Source: a virus
Strand: one strand, 5' to 3'
DNA: 27,519 bases
Virus record (IMG/VR): IMGVR_UViG_3300006923_000098
Location: 1-27,519 of that record
Shown: positions 6,591 through 26,269 of the stretch, piece by piece
How positions within the stretch are numbered: position 1 is the stretch's first letter
Layout: each line of letters begins with the position of its first letter
Program-made: the position numbers and the translations under genes
Notes under the pieces: model-generated
What the model was told of the DNA's origin: nothing
Databases searched by the model: none
The model's input: only the letters and a program-made list of their open reading frames with translations

Positions 6591-7787
6591 ATGAACGTTT
6601 GCATCAGCAAAAAAGTCCTTGGGACTACCTTGCATCTACTGTCTAAGACCGACGGCTCAATTACATGGACTTCTAAGCTTTCTGGTAATTGTTTTCCGGT
6701 AGGATTTTCAGAGCATGATTCATTTGCAACGATCAATAACTTGCTTGGAAAAGAAGTATCTCTTGTCCCGGATAAGAAGTATGTTGACATGATGAGCTAT
6801 CTTCAGGTCGAGGATAATATTCCGTGGCACCAAGTTGTTCCTAATCAAGTCTTTAAGGAGTTCATCCAGAGGATCGTAGATGACTCTAGAACGATTTCTA
6901 ATAGTAGCCAGTATGTATACTATCAAAACTATCTAATTAAAGCACAGAGATCATCCCAGCAGTTAGCTCCAGTCAAGATTGACGAGAACGAGTACAAGAG
7001 ATTGATGATGGATCCCAAGACGATGAACAAGAATGTCATCCAGTCTTTCACCCCCACCGCCGGCTATGCTGGCAGATCTATCTACGGATTTACATCTACG
7101 AATACAGGCAGATTAACTGTGAGGAAAGGTCCTCAAATTCTTACGCTTAAGAAGGAACATAGATCCATATTGAAATCTAGGTTTCCTAAGGGTAGAATAA
7201 TCCAGCTTGATTATACAAGCTTAGAGCCTCGCGTTGCTTTATCAATGATTGGCCACAATCCTCCCAAGGATATCTACAACTTTGTCGCAGAGAATATATT
7301 AGATAATCAGGTCGGGCGAGAATCTGCTAAGCTTCTAACGATTGCGCTTCTTTATGGGATGGGTCAAAAGAGAGTAAAAGATATCTTGTCCGGTACTTAT
7401 CTAGATCCAAGAGAGACAATGTCGAAGATGGATGAGTTCTTTGGTGCCCAGATTATCCGAGAAGAATTATCTAAACAGGCACCCGCTGGATTTATCCAGA
7501 ATTATTACGGCCGAAATATAAAAGTTAGAAGTGATTCAGAGCATGTTCTTTATAATAATCTTATTCAATCTACTGCGGTCGATGTCGCCTTACAAGGATT
7601 CACGAAGATGATAGATAAGATCTACGAAGAAGAAAAGAAGATGCGACCTATTTTTATCTTACATGACGCTTTGCTTATAGATTGCCCACCAGAAGAGGTA
7701 GGATTCTTAGATGCGCTTTGTAGCCTTGGAAGCAAAGCCGAGAACTTAGAAGCGCATTTTTACATCAAGAAAGAGCTAGTAAATTGA
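6591..7787 (+). CDS. Short family A DNA polymerase (polymerase domain only)
   Basis: 398 residues with the family A (Pol I-like) palm and fingers motifs: 'TGRL' at about 172-175; motif A 'LDYTSLEPRV' (206-215, metal ligand D207, E212); motif B 'RESAKLLTIALLYG' (R243, K247, Y255); a 'NNLIQSTAVDVAL' helix (322-334); motif C 'LHDALLID' (H358, D359). No 3'-5' exonuclease and no 5'-3' nuclease domain precede it, and the protein is much shorter than Klenow (about 600 residues). The 5' nuclease is encoded separately at 11667. Two oddities: the position of Pol I Glu883 is Ala360, and the position of Phe762 is Ile251. No Shine-Dalgarno precedes the ATG; a -10 box ends six bases upstream. The stop overlaps the TTG of the next gene. 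It is probably the replicative or gap-filling polymerase; which one cannot be told. Confidence 0.88.
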   Translation: MNVCISKKVLGTTLHLLSKTDGSITWTSKLSGNCFPVGFSEHDSFATINNLLGKEVSLVPDKKYVDMMSYLQVEDNIPWHQVVPNQVFKEFIQRIVDDSRTISNSSQYVYYQNYLIKAQRSSQQLAPVKIDENEYKRLMMDPKTMNKNVIQSFTPTAGYAGRSIYGFTSTNTGRLTVRKGPQILTLKKEHRSILKSRFPKGRIIQLDYTSLEPRVALSMIGHNPPKDIYNFVAENILDNQVGRESAKLLTIALLYGMGQKRVKDILSGTYLDPRETMSKMDEFFGAQIIREELSKQAPAGFIQNYYGRNIKVRSDSEHVLYNNLIQSTAVDVALQGFTKMIDKIYEEEKKMRPIFILHDALLIDCPPEEVGFLDALCSLGSKAENLEAHFYIKKELVN

Positions 7788-17199: not shown

Positions 17200-18444
17200 A
17201 TGAGCAATACAGTTTTTCGTCAAGTTCCAAAAACCGGAGTTATCTTCACCACAGCTGAAGCAATGAAGCTGGGTTTCTATCGAGGTCATCCTGATTGGTG
17301 TAATTTTGGCCAGGGGCAACCTGAGACTGGGCACTTGTCCGGTGGTCTTGAGCGAATTTCTAGTATTCATATCGACGAAGGTGATCATGAGTATGCCCCC
17401 GTCGCCGGACTTCTTGAGTTACGAGAAGCTATCGCTAATTTATACAATGATCTTTACAGGAAAAATAAGAAGTCTAAATATACTGCAGAGAATGTTTCCG
17501 TCGCCGGCGGAGGTCGAACTATTCTTACAAGAACAGTTGCAGCTCTAGACAATATTAATCTTGGGCATTTCCTCCCAGACTACACAGCGTATGAAGAACT
17601 CCTTTCTACCTTCAAGGGGTTTAATACTATCCCGATTATGCTAGATCCAGACAATGGATACGTGTTTTCGGCGCATGATTTAGAGAAAGAGATTCAAGGT
17701 CGAGGTCTAGGGGCAATTCTTGTATCTAACCCATGCAACCCCACTGGAAAAATAATCTCAGGTCGCCATTTAAGATCTTGGGTTAAAGTAGGAAGAGATA
17801 CTGGCTGCTCTCTTATCATGGATGAGTTTTACAGCTCTTACATCTGGGAGGGTGTTCCTTCCGGAGAGACTTTAAGTTGCAGCACCTATATCAACGATGT
17901 TAACAAAGACAGCGTTTTAATCGTCAACGGGCTTGGTAAAAATCAAAGATATCCCGGATGGAGAATAGGATGGGTGATCGGACCAAAGGATGTAATTAAA
18001 TCTATTAATAGCGCCGGAAGTTTTTTGGATGGAGGAGCACCAAGACCTATCCAGAGAGCCGCAGTGCCCCTACTCAGTCCAGAATCTGTAACACAAGAGA
18101 CAGAATCTATTCAAAGAGAGTTTAGGCAAAAACGTCAAGTGATGATGGATGGTCTTCGAAAGATCGGAGTAACCTTTGACTGTGAGCCTGGAGGATCGTT
18201 CTATCTGTGGGGAAACGTGTCAGCACTTCCTGATGGATTAAATACTGGAATGGACTTCTTCAAAGCATGTCTTGAAAGAAAAGTAATTGCAGTTCCGGGC
18301 GAGTTCTTTGATGTTAATCCAGGAAAGAGGATGAAGAACGCGGGATCAAGATTTAAAAATTATTTAAGATTTTCATACGGCCCTGACATGAATACGATTA
18401 AAAAAGGGTTGTCTCGCCTAGAAGTCATGATTCGAGAACTATAA
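17200..18444 (+). CDS. PLP-dependent class I/II aminotransferase
   Basis: 414 residues, the normal length for fold-type I aminotransferases. The cofactor and substrate residues are visible: 'YAPVAGLLELREAI' (65-78), 'NPCNPTGK' (177-184), 'MDEFYSSY' (207-214, D208, Y211), the Schiff-base Lys K247 in 'NGLGKNQRYPGWRIGW' with R255, and the carboxylate-binding R390 in 'YLRFSYG'. The usual 'SxSK' before the Lys is 'GLGK', so the phosphate-binding Ser is lost while the rest is intact. It should transfer amino groups between an amino acid and an oxo acid; the substrate cannot be told. The start has a strong AAAGGAG (17186-17192). Aminotransferases are rare in phages. It could make an amino sugar, an amino acid or a DNA-base substituent. 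Confidence 0.88.
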   Translation: MSNTVFRQVPKTGVIFTTAEAMKLGFYRGHPDWCNFGQGQPETGHLSGGLERISSIHIDEGDHEYAPVAGLLELREAIANLYNDLYRKNKKSKYTAENVSVAGGGRTILTRTVAALDNINLGHFLPDYTAYEELLSTFKGFNTIPIMLDPDNGYVFSAHDLEKEIQGRGLGAILVSNPCNPTGKIISGRHLRSWVKVGRDTGCSLIMDEFYSSYIWEGVPSGETLSCSTYINDVNKDSVLIVNGLGKNQRYPGWRIGWVIGPKDVIKSINSAGSFLDGGAPRPIQRAAVPLLSPESVTQETESIQREFRQKRQVMMDGLRKIGVTFDCEPGGSFYLWGNVSALPDGLNTGMDFFKACLERKVIAVPGEFFDVNPGKRMKNAGSRFKNYLRFSYGPDMNTIKKGLSRLEVMIREL

Positions 18445-18658: not shown

Positions 18659-18901
18659 ATGGCTAAGAAAACCTATAAGTTACACGACGAAGTGATCGGT
18701 GAAGTTGCGCGTTCTTTGCAGCGTGCGTTGCTGACTGGGACAGATATCGTTGATCATCTACGTCAGATTGAGCTGAATGTCCAGAGAGGGGAGTCTTGTG
18801 TGACGCTCTCAGAGGAATTCGTCCGTCGTCAATCTGAAAATGATGAGAGACTAGTCGAAGAAGCTGAGACACTAAAGCTTGAGACTGAAACGCTGGATTA
18901 A
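18659..18901 (+). CDS. Small unknown protein
   Basis: 80 residues, not recognised. It has a helical look: 'KLHDEVIGEVARSLQRALLTGTDIVDHLRQIEL' spans residues 7-39 (given here only as landmarks: LHDEVIGEVA, ALLTGTDIVD), then a Leu/Glu-rich coiled-coil-like tail (about 58-80, 'ERLVEEAETLKLE'). There are no cysteine pairs or catalytic motifs. The ATG is well supported by AGGGAGGT eight bases upstream, and it is the first gene after a promoter and terminator. Two bases separate it from the MazG-like gene, so it may belong to the same nucleotide-pool operon. No function is proposed. Confidence 0.75.
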   Translation: MAKKTYKLHDEVIGEVARSLQRALLTGTDIVDHLRQIELNVQRGESCVTLSEEFVRRQSENDERLVEEAETLKLETETLD

Positions 18902-18903
18902 AG

Positions 18904-19278
18904 ATGTCTTCTGATAGATTAGATGCTATTTTCTTTCTTCAAGAGAGATTTATGGAAAATTTGTCCAAGCACAAAGAGCCACTTCCTGAGTGGCCTGTAG
19001 ATCCGTCTGATAAAAAAGCACAGCAGTTTATTAGGGATATTATTCATCGAGGAACAGAAGAAGCTTTTGAAGCACTTTTGCATCTCAAGAACTGGAAGCC
19101 TCACAAGCACACCGAAAATAAAGAATTTAATCGAGATGCATTTCTCGAGGAGATGATCGACGACTTCACTTACAAGCTTGAAGCGTTGATCTTAATGGGT
19201 TATGAGCCACAAGAATTTTTTGACGCATTTTGCAAAAAGAATAGAAGGAATCTGGACAGGGTCAAAGGAGAGTACTGA
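18904..19278 (+). CDS. MazG-like / all-alpha dUTPase-like NTP pyrophosphohydrolase
   Basis: 124 residues, all helical by appearance. 'FFLQERFMENL' (10-20), 'HRGTEEAFEALLHLKNWKPH' (48-67), 'LEEMIDDFTYKLEALILMGY' (81-100) and 'FFDAFCKKNRRNLDRVKGEY' (105-124) follow the pattern of the all-alpha NTP-PPase superfamily (dUTPase type 2/MazG): an EE..E helix, an EE..D helix, then 'K...N..R'. These enzymes hydrolyse (d)NTPs to monophosphates with pyrophosphate release using Mg2+. All expected acidic positions are present. The substrate could be dUTP or another dNTP; since a trimeric dUTPase is already encoded at 11201, another substrate seems likely. A second, diverged copy of the domain follows immediately in the next gene. 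Confidence 0.72.
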   Translation: MSSDRLDAIFFLQERFMENLSKHKEPLPEWPVDPSDKKAQQFIRDIIHRGTEEAFEALLHLKNWKPHKHTENKEFNRDAFLEEMIDDFTYKLEALILMGYEPQEFFDAFCKKNRRNLDRVKGEY

Positions 19279-20209
19279 GTTACTCGAGCATCTGTTCAGC
19301 ACGCAGGCTAATTTCTCTTCTAAGTTTATAGATCAAGAAAATCTTTCCCTCGAAGAGAAGGAAAGACTGACGCAAGAGTTTTCTTTAGCGCTTCACAACG
19401 AAGTCTCTTCTCTTGTCCGAGAAATTAACTTTAAGCATCACGCAAATGAGCGCAAAGATATCGTGAAGAACTCGATTCTATTTGAAGGAATCGACTGTTT
19501 TCGATATCTACTTGCTATTATGAATCTATGGGGCTTCACCCCAGAAGAGTTCCTAGAGGCGTTTAATGACAAAGCTGCTTACTTAGATATAAAGTATGAC
19601 AACGACCAGAAATGGGAAGGCCAACCGGTAATTTTAGTTGACGTCGATGATGTTATTGCTAGCTTTAGAGAAGGCTATGCTGACTATTTAAACTCTCTTG
19701 AGGGAATTAACGTCGATGTGAATGCCAAAGAGTACTACTTTACAGAGGGAATACCAAGAGACAAGTATAATCCCGAACTAGTATTCCAAGACTTTATTGA
19801 GTCACGAGGATTAAGAACCCTTGCACCCATAAAAGACATGATTGACGCAATAAATAATCTACATGATCAAGGGTACTGGATTCATGTTCTTACTGCCAGG
19901 CCTGACGGGAATCAAACTTGCAAGTACGACTCTTACACATGGCTGGCAAACTCAGGTCTCAAGTTTCACAAGGTTTCATTTTCTCCAGAAAAGATGATCT
20001 GGGCAGCAAAATCTAAATATTATGACCACGATTCAATCGTTTGCGCAATAGATGACTCGCCAAAACATGCGAGAGAGTATGCTAAACATGGCATACCTGT
20101 AATCTCTCCAGCTAAATCTTACAACAAAGAGCTTCAAAATGTGGAGAATGTCCATGTAGTAGAGAGAGGCCCAGAGGTTCAATCCGTTATATTAAAGTTT
20201 GGAAGTTAG
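19202..20209 (+). CDS. MazG-like domain fused to HAD 5'-deoxynucleotidase-like domain; true start uncertain
   Basis: The open frame is 335 residues. Residues 1-23 overlap the previous gene and look like shadow translation. From 'STELLEHLFSTQ' on, it aligns residue for residue with the start of the previous MazG-like protein ('SSDRLDAIFFLQ'), so the real protein begins near 19268-19292, yet no ATG, GTG or TTG lies there. Domain 1 (about 25-130) is a diverged MazG-like helix bundle ('LHNEVSSLVREINFKHH', 'LFEGIDCFRYLLAIMNLWGF'). Domain 2 (140-330) is a HAD phosphatase of the 5'(3')-deoxyribonucleotidase type: 'ILVDVDDVIASF' (D147, D149), 'VLTARP' (229-234), 'AIDDSP' (282-287). One chain could thus take a dNTP to dNMP and then to the nucleoside. 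The acidic set of the MazG part is weaker than in the first copy. Confidence 0.75.
   Translation: MSHKNFLTHFAKRIEGIWTGSKESTELLEHLFSTQANFSSKFIDQENLSLEEKERLTQEFSLALHNEVSSLVREINFKHHANERKDIVKNSILFEGIDCFRYLLAIMNLWGFTPEEFLEAFNDKAAYLDIKYDNDQKWEGQPVILVDVDDVIASFREGYADYLNSLEGINVDVNAKEYYFTEGIPRDKYNPELVFQDFIESRGLRTLAPIKDMIDAINNLHDQGYWIHVLTARPDGNQTCKYDSYTWLANSGLKFHKVSFSPEKMIWAAKSKYYDHDSIVCAIDDSPKHAREYAKHGIPVISPAKSYNKELQNVENVHVVERGPEVQSVILKFGS
19264..19278 (+). promoter_or_regulatory. Shine-Dalgarno directly before a stop: initiation or possible +1 recoding site
   Basis: AAAGGAG (19264-19270) is followed two bases later by TAC TGA, the last sense codon and stop of the first MazG-like gene. The downstream MazG-HAD frame is +1 relative to it. 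The arrangement (internal SD, short gap, codon, TGA) recalls the prfB (RF2) +1 frameshift site, though TAC re-pairs poorly with ACT. The simpler reading is a ribosome site for the next gene whose start codon is noncanonical or altered. Confidence 0.35.
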
Positions 20210-20236: not shown

Positions 20237-20530
20237 ATGTACAAGCTTCCGTATCTAACAGATATCAGAGAAAAGATAGACAAGAAAGTAAAGTCAGATC
20301 CAGACTTTTACGACAATGTCAGAGTCAAAGGTCTAAGATCAGATATTATAGATTTATTAGAAGACATGAAAAAGTGGGTAAACAACAAAGATAGAAATCA
20401 GGTTTTAGCTAAGAATAAATCATACTTGCCTGCAAAAGGTTCAAACCATCAAATAAATGATTTTATTCAAAGGCATTCTGATATAGTTGACACAGCTAAA
20501 AGATTGGGAATTCATGAAGACAAAACTTAA
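20237..20530 (+). CDS. Small unknown basic protein
   Basis: 97 residues, rich in Lys and Asp, helical in appearance ('YLTDIREKIDKKVKSD', 'LRSDIIDLLEDMKKW', 'INDFIQRHSDIVDTAKRLGI'). No known motif, cysteines or membrane segment were seen. The ATG has AAAGGAA a few bases upstream. The last 17 bases overlap the following HAD gene, which suggests translational coupling and a shared operon. No function is proposed. Confidence 0.7.
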   Translation: MYKLPYLTDIREKIDKKVKSDPDFYDNVRVKGLRSDIIDLLEDMKKWVNNKDRNQVLAKNKSYLPAKGSNHQINDFIQRHSDIVDTAKRLGIHEDKT

Positions 20531-21449
20531 AATTAAAAAAAATATCAATGAGGTGTTTCCGGATGCCTCTGCAGGAGACTGTGACGTTTTCGCAGTTTTT
20601 GACTTTGATGAGACAATTGCCATTACAGATTCTCTTATTCATGTCATCGACATCGAAACAAAAGAAAGATTACGCTCTTACACTCCAGATCAATACGCAG
20701 TTCAATTTGGCAGCGGCGAATCAAGCCTCGCCGCCAACGAAGCGTTCGACTATTCAGAATTTGATGATGTTCCAGATGCTACAAAGACAACTGAGATTTT
20801 TGAGATTCTTAAAAGCGTAGTAAGATGCGGAGTAACCTCCGCGGCAATTTTAACTGCTCGAGGTTCTGAGGCCCAAAAGCCCATCAAGGATTTCTTGGCT
20901 AAGCTAGGTGTAAGATTGCAAGTTGTGCACGGAGTTGACAGCCCGCTAGGATCAGCCAAGGCACAGAAATTTAGAGGATATGCTAGACAATTCAATCCAT
21001 CAACAATGCACTTTTATGAGGATTCAGATTCTAATAGAGCTGCCGTCGAGAATATGGTTAGAAACTCTAAGGAGTTCGAAGGGGTTGACGTGTATCTTCA
21101 CAATGTTAAAAAGGGAATGAAGCAATCTTCCGGGCATGTTCACGTTACTTATGAGACCCCAGCTGAGCCAGACAATCCAATGGTTCAAGAAGCTAGAGAA
21201 AAAACGGCAGATCTTATCGTTGAAGCCCTTACAGATACTGACATACGTCGAATCGAAGCCGTTGCTCGTCGAGAAATTAGAGATTTTTTACGTCAAAACC
21301 TTGAAAAGAAAGTAACAGACTTTATTCAAAAAGAACTCAAGGGAAAAGAAAATGAAAAGATCATTAAGAACATCGCGTCTAAGATGATCGTTGATCTTTA
21401 TAGATCCCTTTGGACTAAGCGATCTTTTTGGGAAAGTGACATAAAGTAG
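20514..21449 (+). CDS. HAD-superfamily phosphatase with helical C-terminal extension
   Basis: 311 residues from the ATG at 20514, preferred over the upstream TTG at 20487 because the latter lies deeper in the previous gene and adds only nine residues. HAD motifs: 'FAVFDFDETIA' (motif I, D30, D32, T34), 'AAILTARGSEAQ' (motif II, T114) and 'HFYEDSDSN' (motif IV, D170, D172). HAD enzymes of this type remove phosphate from small molecules or nucleic-acid ends. After about residue 215 there is a charged helical tail ending in 'IVDLYRSLWTKRSFWESDIK', an unusual aromatic-rich basic segment that may bind another protein or nucleic acid. This is the second HAD domain within 1.5 kb. The substrate is unknown. 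Confidence 0.75.
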   Translation: MKTKLKIKKNINEVFPDASAGDCDVFAVFDFDETIAITDSLIHVIDIETKERLRSYTPDQYAVQFGSGESSLAANEAFDYSEFDDVPDATKTTEIFEILKSVVRCGVTSAAILTARGSEAQKPIKDFLAKLGVRLQVVHGVDSPLGSAKAQKFRGYARQFNPSTMHFYEDSDSNRAAVENMVRNSKEFEGVDVYLHNVKKGMKQSSGHVHVTYETPAEPDNPMVQEAREKTADLIVEALTDTDIRRIEAVARREIRDFLRQNLEKKVTDFIQKELKGKENEKIIKNIASKMIVDLYRSLWTKRSFWESDIK

Positions 21450-21509: not shown

Positions 21510-22493
21510 ATGCCACAGAATCCGAATCTTGAACCTGTTACTTTGCCCATGCCGCTACGGTTTGGAGAAGAACCTGAAACTGAATTTATAAATGATCTCG
21601 ATGCTCTTTCAGTTCAGTTAGTCGACAGCCCTACAGGAGACCAGATTCGAAACGTCGCCTACCGTTATGTGAAGGCGACCTGGGCAGACTCTCCTGACCA
21701 AACTGATCCCTTGAATGCCACTCAACAAGAACTGAGCGAAACCCTTGAGGACGTGATGCAGTTTCGAGCTCTTCCTGCAGGAATGGAGGCAATGTCCTTC
21801 ACATTTCTGGTAGGGGGAATCGATCTGCAAACCGTCACTCACTTGATTCGCCATCGAGCAGGTACTTTCGCCGCCCAGTGTACCGGCGATCGCTGGCAAT
21901 CACACAGCCGAGCTTTAGTTCCTGCCGCTGTTCAGAACAGCCCTGAAATCCATGATCGCTGGAAGGCTCACGTTGAAGCAGGTAAGAAACTATATGCAGA
22001 TATGATCGATACTAGACAGATCAGCATTATGGATGCACGCACTGTTCTACCACGCGCCATTGAGACATTCTATTACGCACGATTCAACCTCAAAGATTTA
22101 ATTGGGTTTATTCGCCAGCGCTGTGACAAACAGATCCAGCCCGCTATAGACAATCTTATGGCGGCCAAAATGGCGCTTGAGGTTTGCAAAGTAATTCCAG
22201 AAGCCGCAGCAGTAATCGGGACTCGAACTCTTACAGGTCCTGCTATGCATTATGTTCGAAACCTCCGATCTGGAACGGGAACCAATCTTTATTGGCCTGA
22301 TGCAGATACTGATGAAAAGATCGAATATCATCCCAATGACACAATCTATCAGGCTGAACGTGATGATGTGAATGGTACTAATCCTCCTAATAATGAAACG
22401 GGAGAAAATAGTAAGTTCCGGCAGCACTGGAATGATCTTCTTCGTCAAATTAGCGATATTGAGATGGAATATCGAGATCACATGAGTCGCTAA
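21510..22493 (+). CDS. thyX: Divergent flavin-dependent thymidylate synthase (ThyX family)
   Basis: 327 residues. The ThyX hallmark 'RHR' is at 114-116 in 'THLIRHRAGTF', and further on 'NLKDLIGFIRQRCDKQIQPA' resembles the helix where ThyX has 'R...AQ.EIR', followed by 'VIPEAAAVI' (family '...P'). The signature 'RHRxxSxNxxSxR' is altered to 'RHRAGTFAAQCTGDRW', with a two-residue longer spacing and Cys/Thr where the Ser is expected. ThyX methylates dUMP using FAD and methylenetetrahydrofolate. It is longer than a typical ThyX (about 220-250), with a 35-residue N-terminal extension and a C-terminal part of about 80 residues ('YWPDADTDEKIEYHPND'). The altered site could mean a different acceptor or transferred group. 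Family likely; exact reaction uncertain. Confidence 0.7.
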   Translation: MPQNPNLEPVTLPMPLRFGEEPETEFINDLDALSVQLVDSPTGDQIRNVAYRYVKATWADSPDQTDPLNATQQELSETLEDVMQFRALPAGMEAMSFTFLVGGIDLQTVTHLIRHRAGTFAAQCTGDRWQSHSRALVPAAVQNSPEIHDRWKAHVEAGKKLYADMIDTRQISIMDARTVLPRAIETFYYARFNLKDLIGFIRQRCDKQIQPAIDNLMAAKMALEVCKVIPEAAAVIGTRTLTGPAMHYVRNLRSGTGTNLYWPDADTDEKIEYHPNDTIYQAERDDVNGTNPPNNETGENSKFRQHWNDLLRQISDIEMEYRDHMSR

Positions 22494-23528: not shown

Positions 23529-23966
23529 ATGAAAGTTTATATCGCATCACCGTTTTTTAACCCGAAACAAGTAGAACAAGTAGAGTTTATTAAATCTACG
23601 CTTACAGAGACTGGACATGAATATTTTAGCCCCAAGGACTATTTTGTTTTAAATCCTAATGCAACTCAAGAAGATAGAACGAGAATCTTTGACGTCAATT
23701 GCCAGAAGATCCAGTGGGCAGATTTTGTTCTTTGCAATACTGAAGCCAAGGATCTTGGCACGATTTGGGAAGCAGGATATGCTCATGGAATTAATAAGCC
23801 AGTAGTTTTCTTTGCAGAGGGTCTCCCAGACGGAAAGTTCAACGTAATGCTCAGTGAAGCAGGTCAATCTGTCAACACATCACGTGAACAATTGACTGAA
23901 TATCTAAATCGTGTAAGTGACGCAGGTGAGCTTATAATTGAACAGTACACGGGATTTACGCAGTAA
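23529..23966 (+). CDS. Nucleoside 2-deoxyribosyltransferase-like enzyme
   Basis: 145 residues, near the usual family size (about 150). 'MKVYIASPFFNPKQVEQV' is the typical first strand and loop, 'DVNCQKIQWADFVLCN' (55-70) the central helix-strand, and 'DLGTIWEAGYAHGINKPVV' (75-93) carries the catalytic Glu E81 in the 'D.GT.wE.GyA' motif. These enzymes exchange bases between deoxynucleosides, or hydrolyse deoxynucleoside monophosphates in related subfamilies. AGGAG (23519-23523) lies five bases before the ATG. Beside MazG, HAD phosphatase and deaminase genes it fits salvage or remodelling of deoxynucleosides. The substrate cannot be told from sequence. Confidence 0.82.
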   Translation: MKVYIASPFFNPKQVEQVEFIKSTLTETGHEYFSPKDYFVLNPNATQEDRTRIFDVNCQKIQWADFVLCNTEAKDLGTIWEAGYAHGINKPVVFFAEGLPDGKFNVMLSEAGQSVNTSREQLTEYLNRVSDAGELIIEQYTGFTQ

Positions 23967-25836: not shown

Positions 25837-25860
25837 ATGTCGAGTGTACTACCAGCTTAA
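25837..25860 (+). other. Seven-codon minigene overlapping the deaminase start
   Basis: ATG at 25837 lies seven bases after GGAG (25826-25829), the best-placed start here, but it encodes only MSSVLPA before TAA. The deaminase frame starts from a GTG at 25844 inside it, 14 bases from the same ribosome site. It may be a leader peptide, a translational regulator, or the trace of a frameshift at the deaminase 5' end. Confidence 0.3.
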
Positions 25861-26269
25861 AAATATCGCCCTAACAAAATCTAAAAACAGGCACAATTAT
25901 CATGTTTCTGCATGTATTATAATTGGAAAAACTCGTTATTTTGGATGGAATAGTTATAAAACTTCTCCTCGCGCAAAAAGACGACTTTACTGTAAGACGC
26001 TCGAAAAATATGTATTTTCAAGTTGTATGCATGCAGAAATGCACGCAATGCTAAGGGCAGTATCCCGGCATGAAGATCTCTCTAGAGCAAAGATGAAAAT
26101 CGTAAGAGTTCGAAAAGATGGTGAGTTTACTATGTCTAAGCCGTGTAAACACTGCCAGAAAATGATGAGGGAGTCTTCTATGAGCCCAAAGAATATTTCT
26201 TATACTGACTGGGACGGCTCTGTCCAGAATTTAATTTCGTGGGATGAAGATGACGAAAAAACCGCTTGA
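25844..26269 (+). CDS. Zinc-dependent cytidine/dCMP deaminase-like protein
   Basis: 141 residues from a GTG. The zinc site is clear: 'CMHAEMHAML' (61-70, H63 and catalytic E65) and 'SKPCKHCQKMM' (98-108, C101 and C104). This is the cytidine deaminase superfamily; substrates include cytidine, dCMP and nucleic-acid cytosines. The basic N-terminal half (several Lys/Arg) could contact nucleic acid or nucleotides. Deamination of dCMP would give dUMP for ThyX. The start is uncertain because the well-placed ATG at 25837 is in another frame. The gene overlaps the next by 26 bases. Confidence 0.82.
   Translation: MYYQLKNIALTKSKNRHNYHVSACIIIGKTRYFGWNSYKTSPRAKRRLYCKTLEKYVFSSCMHAEMHAMLRAVSRHEDLSRAKMKIVRVRKDGEFTMSKPCKHCQKMMRESSMSPKNISYTDWDGSVQNLISWDEDDEKTA

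Follow-up and report, generated by a model that had tools for sequence, protein, structure and literature searches.

The window, a 27,519-bp IMG/VR virus fragment from a virus of bacteria, contains two overlapping genes, ORF1 and ORF2, which code for a stand-alone MazG-like protein (MazG1) and for a fusion of another MazG-like domain (MazG2) with a HAD domain. Both reading frames were found exactly where a preliminary description had placed tandem MazG-like genes, the second of them fused to HAD, and the family matches agree with that description. The features of this region are:

18659..18901, plus strand: conserved protein of 80 amino acids with no assigned function (67 of 72 loci), immediately 5' of MazG1
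18904..19278, plus strand: ORF1, MazG1, predicted stand-alone all-alpha NTP pyrophosphohydrolase of 124 amino acids; metal ligands E53, E56, E83 and D86 intact
19202..19278, plus strand: overlap of ORF1 and ORF2, 77 nt, frame +1; dual coding is supported, with synonymous changes of ORF1 depressed there
19202..20209, plus strand: ORF2, MazG2-HAD fusion of 335 amino acids; ATG start at 19202
19277..19603, plus strand: MazG2 domain, ORF2 residues 26-134, dUTPase_2-like; Ser70 at the position of the second Glu in ExxE; E67, E95 and D98 kept
19619..20164, plus strand: HAD domain, ORF2 residues 140-321, predicted NT5C-like 5'-nucleotidase; D147, D149, T231, K264, D284 and D285
21510..22493, plus strand: divergent ThyX-like protein of 327 amino acids, in which RHRAGTFAAQCTGDR replaces the canonical RHRTWSYNEISRRY type; accompanies every fusion locus with enough flank
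23529..23966, plus strand: nucleoside 2'-deoxyribosyltransferase-like protein; PF05014; closest PDB entry 6evs

The overlapping genes and their domains

ORF1 was matched by phrog_12184 (1.3e-9) and phrog_173 (1.6e-8), both of which are families of NTP pyrophosphohydrolases, and the Pfam family dUTPase_2 was matched by 29 of 35 ORF1 relatives. The AF2 model is a four-helix protein (pLDDT 93.5, pTM 0.82), whose best matches in the PDB were to DR2231 of Deinococcus, a MazG-like pyrophosphohydrolase, with weak E-values and a probability of up to 0.97. The EXXE...EXXD motif of the MazG1 family (E53, E56, E83, D86) was complete in 72 of 73 distinct proteins. Judged by its sequence, MazG1 is very likely to be catalytic.

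ORF2 begins inside ORF1, in the +1 frame. Synonymous changes in ORF1 were counted for the window and three sister sequences in five pairwise comparisons. Four of these showed changes in 33-40 of 98 codons outside the overlap versus 1-2 of 25 inside (p 0.0002-0.007); the fifth, the window versus L011, was not significant (p 0.22). The changes remaining within the overlap were mostly at third codon positions of ORF2. Translation of the overlap in both frames is supported by this pattern, which points to the ATG at 19202 as the start of ORF2; it is the only usual start codon which yields the full N-terminal domain and is also conserved in the sisters. A programmed frameshift joining ORF1 and ORF2, suggested by AAAGGAG near the ORF1 stop, was rejected because of the poor-looking tRNA re-pairing at UAC-UGA, the presence of a TAA stop in a sister, and the dual-coding overlap starting from a conserved ATG. 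A non-canonical Leu start codon 3' of AAAGGAG was rejected on the same grounds.

The AF2 model of ORF2 (pLDDT 91.7, pTM 0.84) contains a confident helical N-domain and a HAD domain, in agreement with the MazG-like bundle which had been proposed for the N-terminal part. The HAD motifs DVDDV, LTARP and IDDSP, which had been read from the letters alone, were located at residues 147-151, 230-234 and 283-287, respectively, with catalytic residues which do not vary among the relatives. All six HAD catalytic residues (motifs I-IV: DxD, T/S, K, DD) were present in 46 of 47 proteins, the 47th being cut by the end of its contig. Residues 131-332 of ORF2 matched the HAD families phrog_420 (2.5e-21), phrog_415 and phrog_2643. 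PF06941 (NT5C) was matched by 35 of 45 relatives, with 2.9e-11 as the best value; the window's own ORF2 gave no NT5C match at E 1 in the Pfam profile search, so the membership of its HAD in NT5C is based on the relatives, phrog_2643 and the fold matches. The nearest solved structure by profile was 3bwv, a putative 5'(3')-deoxyribonucleotidase, which was also first in the fold search with the ORF2 model; human mitochondrial deoxyribonucleotidase (mdN, 6g2m) ranked 10. The HAD is predicted to be a dNMP 5'-nucleotidase, and this assignment is likely to be correct. A polynucleotide 3'-phosphatase, or another small-molecule phosphatase, could be proposed from the match of phrog_415 ("polynucleotide kinase") at 5e-15, from tblastn matches which include phage PNK phosphatase domains, and from the poor predictability of HAD substrates by sequence, yet it is improbable, since a kinase domain is absent from ORF2, the family matches mainly NT5C in Pfam, deoxyribonucleotidases are the top PDB matches by sequence and fold with T4 PNK at rank 44 only, and the partner of the HAD is a nucleotide pyrophosphohydrolase.

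PF08761 (dUTPase_2) matched ORF2 residues 28-117 at 6.5e-5, above the curated cut-off, and MazG1 and MazG2 are homologous according to hhalign (E 7.5e-12, probability 97.5). When both were aligned as a joined single chain, the MazG1 rows fell onto MazG2. The profile match of MazG2 to the dUTPase of C. jejuni (1w2y) was weak (E 0.006). The metal ligands of that enzyme are Glu46, Glu49, Glu74 and Asp77 (PMC2954211); alignment onto these positions gave E67, S70, E95 and D98 for the window, with Ser70 corresponding to Glu49. The diverged MazG copy of the preliminary description was thus recovered, with one ligand exchanged: MazG2 belongs to the family by sequence and fold, but lacks the complete EXXE...EXXD motif of an active pyrophosphohydrolase. 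A complete metal site was found in only two of 47 relatives (L068, L097) and the site is degenerate in 45, including the window; 32 proteins retain three of the four ligands. Position 70 is Glu in only 4/47 and another residue in 43/47, at position 95 Lys, Ser or Asn occurs in 15/47, and position 67 is lost in 4/47, while D98, R101, Y102 and N108 are invariant.

MazG2 is quite likely non-catalytic; weak catalysis may persist, because L068 and L097 keep all four ligands and 32 relatives keep three. The simplest reading is that selection maintains catalysis in MazG1 and HAD, and maintains MazG2 for another role. The working pyrophosphohydrolase of the pair is then, most likely, the predicted product of the separate upstream gene, ORF1. 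Since four-helix bundles of the MazG type often form on dimerisation, being built in this superfamily either within a protomer or on dimerisation (PMC2954211), MazG2 could perhaps dock on MazG1, a proposal for which we consider the chances to be even.

For one relative, L011 (IMGVR_UViG_3300002242_000001), a frameshift was noted which interrupts the MazG2 part of ORF2; its sisters have intact copies.

Distribution of the pair and its neighbouring genes

From viral contigs, distinct proteins of both types were collected by searching, 47 of MazG2-HAD and 73 of MazG1; no relatives were found in the cellular genome contigs which were scanned. The fusion is conserved down to about 36% identity across the 47 virus proteins, and the homologues found keep both domains joined, as would be expected from the preliminary description. 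Every locus which was found with ORF2 as query has MazG1 within 6 kb, usually as the adjacent gene. In 38 of 47 cases the spacing lies between an overlap of 77 nt and a gap of 251 nt; in the other nine the two genes are 0.7 to 3.7 kb apart. Loci L023 and L026-L030 had been regarded as ORF1-only relatives; this grouping was abandoned, with ORF2 situated 3.2-3.7 kb further downstream in L023 and L027. A "polynucleotide kinase" beside MazG in Gordonia phages was also discarded, being a kinase-like P-loop protein and no HAD.

Salinibacter phage M8CC-19 encodes a protein annotated as hypothetical (AUO78964; L155 28207-29121), which, like ORF2 of the window, consists of a MazG-type domain followed by an NT5C-like HAD, although its NT5C match is below the curated cut-off. 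Its MazG-type domain belongs to a different subfamily, PF18909 (dGTP_diPhyd_N, MazZ-type), and this fusion apparently arose independently of the one in the window.

The ThyX-like gene at 21510-22493 matched PF02511 at 5.9e-20; its NCBIfam ThyX score was 54.7, versus a cut-off of 87.9, and it falls outside the ThyX signature and equivalog. The divergent ThyX mostly retains RHR, and FAAQCTGDR stands where canonical phage ThyX has YNEISRRY. A still more diverged form was present in four loci, and several of the records with divergent ThyX encode canonical ThyX as well. For the PF05014 gene, a DNPH1-like identity was considered and found unsupported, an N-deoxyribosyltransferase being the closest PDB entry.

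Enough flanking sequence was available for 59 distinct MazG1 loci, 41 with the fusion and 18 without. Divergent ThyX was nearby in 41/41 fusion loci versus 4/18 loci without fusion, and the PF05014 deoxyribosyltransferase in 36/41 versus 5/18; p-values from these locus counts overstate the association, since the counts are not phylogenetically independent and only two of the seven changes of the fusion on the best MazG1 tree are forced by well-supported (starred) branches. A set of 28 long IMG/VR records (G001-G028; e.g., L156-L163) comprised 19 with the fusion and nine without. All 19 fusion records carry divergent ThyX, 18 carry the deoxyribosyltransferase, and none carries a gene of the ThyA family. 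Eight of the nine records without fusion possess a ThyA-family gene and neither of the two partners; the ninth possesses divergent ThyX and the deoxyribosyltransferase. Fusion and ThyA-family gene thus never occur together in the 28 long records.

The ThyA-family proteins contain YDIPA or YDVPA together with DVPC in 8/8 cases and therewith the signature of dCMP hydroxymethylases, which are marked by an Asp (Asp179 in T4) replacing the Asn of thymidylate synthase and by an acidic residue three positions before the catalytic Cys (PMC6400193). One of them was compared with the PDB and gave CMP 5-hydroxymethylase as the best match (5e-42). Phages with MazG1 appear to be of two kinds, those with a predicted hydroxymethylase and those with divergent ThyX and deoxyribosyltransferase, the latter usually with MazG2-HAD. 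In four loci divergent ThyX and deoxyribosyltransferase were present and the fusion was undetected; no NT5C or YfbR nucleotidase was found in their records, which suggests that the HAD is helpful, but not indispensable. A search of the 28 records for T4 beta-glucosyltransferase gave no match, with the control equally silent.

Several further genes of the window were noted. It encodes a class II ribonucleotide reductase, a trimeric dUTPase and a deaminase; a cytidine/dCMP-deaminase-like protein with HAE and PCxxC motifs is located at 25844-26269. Another HAD-like protein is encoded shortly 3' of the fusion, at 20487-21449; its C-terminal part is long and probably helical, and its family matches are all weak. 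At 6591-7787 a short family A DNA polymerase-like protein of 398 amino acids was found, with a partial PolA match only. A class I/II aminotransferase (17200-18444), related to GntC and aspartate aminotransferases, occupies a place which in many relatives is taken by an Fpg-like or MBD4-like gene.

These glycosylase genes are situated just upstream of MazG1, Fpg-like ones in 39/72 loci and MBD4-like ones in 23/72 (E about 1e-48 to human MBD4); in L066 an MBD4-like glycosylase is fused to an Fpg-like domain, at offsets -1466 to -228 from MazG1. Their occurrence does not follow that of the fusion (Fpg-like, 26/47 with versus 13/25 without; MBD4-like, 17/47 versus 6/25). Deamination of modified cytosine leads to T or hmU opposite G. 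The MBD4-like genes would fit modified cytosine, yet they occur in both kinds of phages and do not discriminate between them.

Possible roles of the pair

The sequences support the families, the intact and lost active-site residues, the conserved fusion and the gene association, from which we infer docking, substrate and a role in base substitution. The best explanation, which in our estimation has about an equal chance of being right or wrong, would be a two-protein device for the stripping of nucleotides, made up of MazG1 and of the HAD with MazG2 as its docking part, and serving base substitution. MazG1 would convert a dNTP, probably of a pyrimidine, to the dNMP. The HAD of ORF2 would remove the remaining phosphate, giving the nucleoside, so that kinases could not rebuild the triphosphate. 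MazG2, as a putative docking copy, would hold the nucleotidase beside MazG1. The nearby deoxyribosyltransferase may take over the nucleoside, with base exchange as a possible third step.

The order of reactions from dNTP over dNMP to nucleoside, as well as the family assignments behind it, had been put forward in the preliminary description and is upheld by the family matches. Its further suggestion that one polypeptide could carry out both steps did not hold, since the position of the second Glu of its ExxE motif is taken by Ser70 in MazG2 of the window, and the domain has degenerated in 45 of the 47 relatives. The proposed removal of a normal base draws its support from the genomic context and from the precedent of the dTMP phosphatases (PMC12697855).

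The device may serve a phage module for base substitution, in which divergent ThyX would occupy the position taken in sister phages by a dCMP-hydroxymethylase-like enzyme; this role seems slightly more probable than not. A pyrimidine is the probable target, for two reasons: the known phage member of the NT5C family has dTMP as its substrate, and it is pyrimidines which the alternative modules modify. It could be dC, dT or a by-product; a dCMP nucleotidase would compete with a dCMP-modifying enzyme.

More tentatively, and with the balance of probability somewhat against it, a wider proposal can be made. Divergent ThyX could be a flavin-dependent enzyme modifying pyrimidines at C5, possibly a hydroxymethylase or methylase of dCMP or dUMP; it would have taken the place of the ThyA-type hydroxymethylase across a large group of uncultured phages, and Geobacillus phage GR1 has it as well. 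MazG1, the nucleotidase tethered by MazG2, and the deoxyribosyltransferase would then act in line, three steps in all, and break the competing nucleotide, a canonical one, down into base and sugar; MazG2 would be the docking module for hand-over of the substrate, and the DNA would contain a non-canonical pyrimidine.

Ordinary recycling, which would balance the dNTP pool and convert host nucleotides to nucleosides for the phage deoxyribosyltransferase and for salvage, with no modified base, is rather unlikely. The ribonucleotide reductase, trimeric dUTPase, deaminase and deoxyribosyltransferase of the window would suit such a function; it does not, however, predict the mutual exclusion with the gene bearing the hydroxymethylase signature, nor the constant company of divergent ThyX. 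Only marginally less probable is a sanitation of the nucleotide pool, in which the pair would destroy damaged or deaminated nucleotides (e.g., oxidised dNTPs or 5-hydroxymethyl-dUMP) and no canonical dNTP. MazG enzymes are reported to remove oxidised nucleotides, 5-OH-dCTP for example (PMC3855555), and the Fpg-like and MBD4-like genes just upstream of MazG1 point in the same direction, but it is divergent ThyX, and not the glycosylase genes, which tracks the fusion. Still less probable is a bifunctional ORF2, with a catalytic MazG2 and conversion of dNTP to nucleoside by ORF2 alone, MazG1 being a paralogue of other specificity. The three ligands kept in the window, the two relatives with all four, and the independent fusion in phage M8CC-19 would be compatible with it; against it stand the variation at positions 70, 95 and 67 of MazG2 next to an invariant set of HAD residues, and the constant presence of MazG1.

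Phages which replace a letter of their DNA must make the new nucleotide and also destroy the old one. With the stripping device as the preferred explanation, the family described here would represent a way to couple two steps of destruction, by means of an intact pyrophosphohydrolase and a nucleotidase fused to its degenerate copy. The viruses bearing the fusion may, as far as their gene content indicates, replace one of the four normal letters, and the set of uncultured phages, together with the cultivable GR1, is marked as a source of candidates for modified pyrimidines.

Comparison with phage GR1 and with known systems

The isolated and unrelated Geobacillus phage GR1 (L164; OK896991.1 16752-41693) has a ThyX which is 46.5% identical to that of the window over its length. 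Its neighbourhood contains a PF05014 deoxyribosyltransferase, a YfbR-like 5'-deoxynucleotidase (PF12917, 1.7e-19) and a dUTPase_2 protein (1.3e-9), besides a thymidylate-kinase-like gene and an annotated glycosyltransferase which matched no Pfam family. Going by these predicted gene products, GR1 carries the set of functions seen in the window, a YfbR-type nucleotidase taking the place of the HAD, and is a candidate for modified DNA.

T4 possesses a pyrophosphohydrolase, the dCTPase/dUTPase gp56, which is coupled to the pyrimidine C5-modifying dCMP hydroxymethylase gp42. The sister phages without fusion resemble this arrangement, since in them MazG1 is accompanied by a gene of the ThyA family which has the signature residues of gp42; the fusion phages differ from it by having divergent ThyX and a nucleotidase instead of a hydroxymethylase.

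Among phages with dU-DNA, dTMP phosphatases serve to exclude thymidine, that of PBS1 belonging to PF06941 and that of DSS3_VP1 to PF12917 (PMC12697855). Dtm_PBS1, of the NT5C family, and Dtm_DSS3_VP1 are phage dNMP 5'-nucleotidases, as is predicted for the HAD of the window; they were described as lone enzymes (PMC12697855), whereas in the window a degenerate MazG domain is attached to the nucleotidase, which has an intact MazG as its partner. Plain dU-DNA in these viruses does not fit well with the trimeric dUTPase genes which the window and 8 of the 28 long records contain. The MazZ/DatZ/PurZ cluster of S-2L (PMC8342488) is similar in that a diphosphohydrolase of the MazG-HisE fold and a dNTP-destroying enzyme serve base replacement. 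It differs by its purine substrates, by a dATP triphosphohydrolase, and by having neither a pseudoenzyme fusion nor a ThyX-like partner. Phage enzymes which destroy a canonical nucleotide are therefore already known; the gene associations suggest that they are tied here specifically to divergent ThyX.

A further parallel to the pair is found in the dimeric dUTPases, which are thought to be derived from MazG by duplication (PMC2954211). MazG2 aligns with the catalytic half of the C. jejuni dUTPase (1w2y), and the dimeric dUTPases and MazG proteins (1w2y; S. solfataricus MazG, 1vmg; PMC2954211) share the four-helix bundle, which in some members is formed on dimerisation. In contrast to the dimeric dUTPase, the two duplicated MazG copies of the window remain on different polypeptides, with the HAD attached to the degenerate one.
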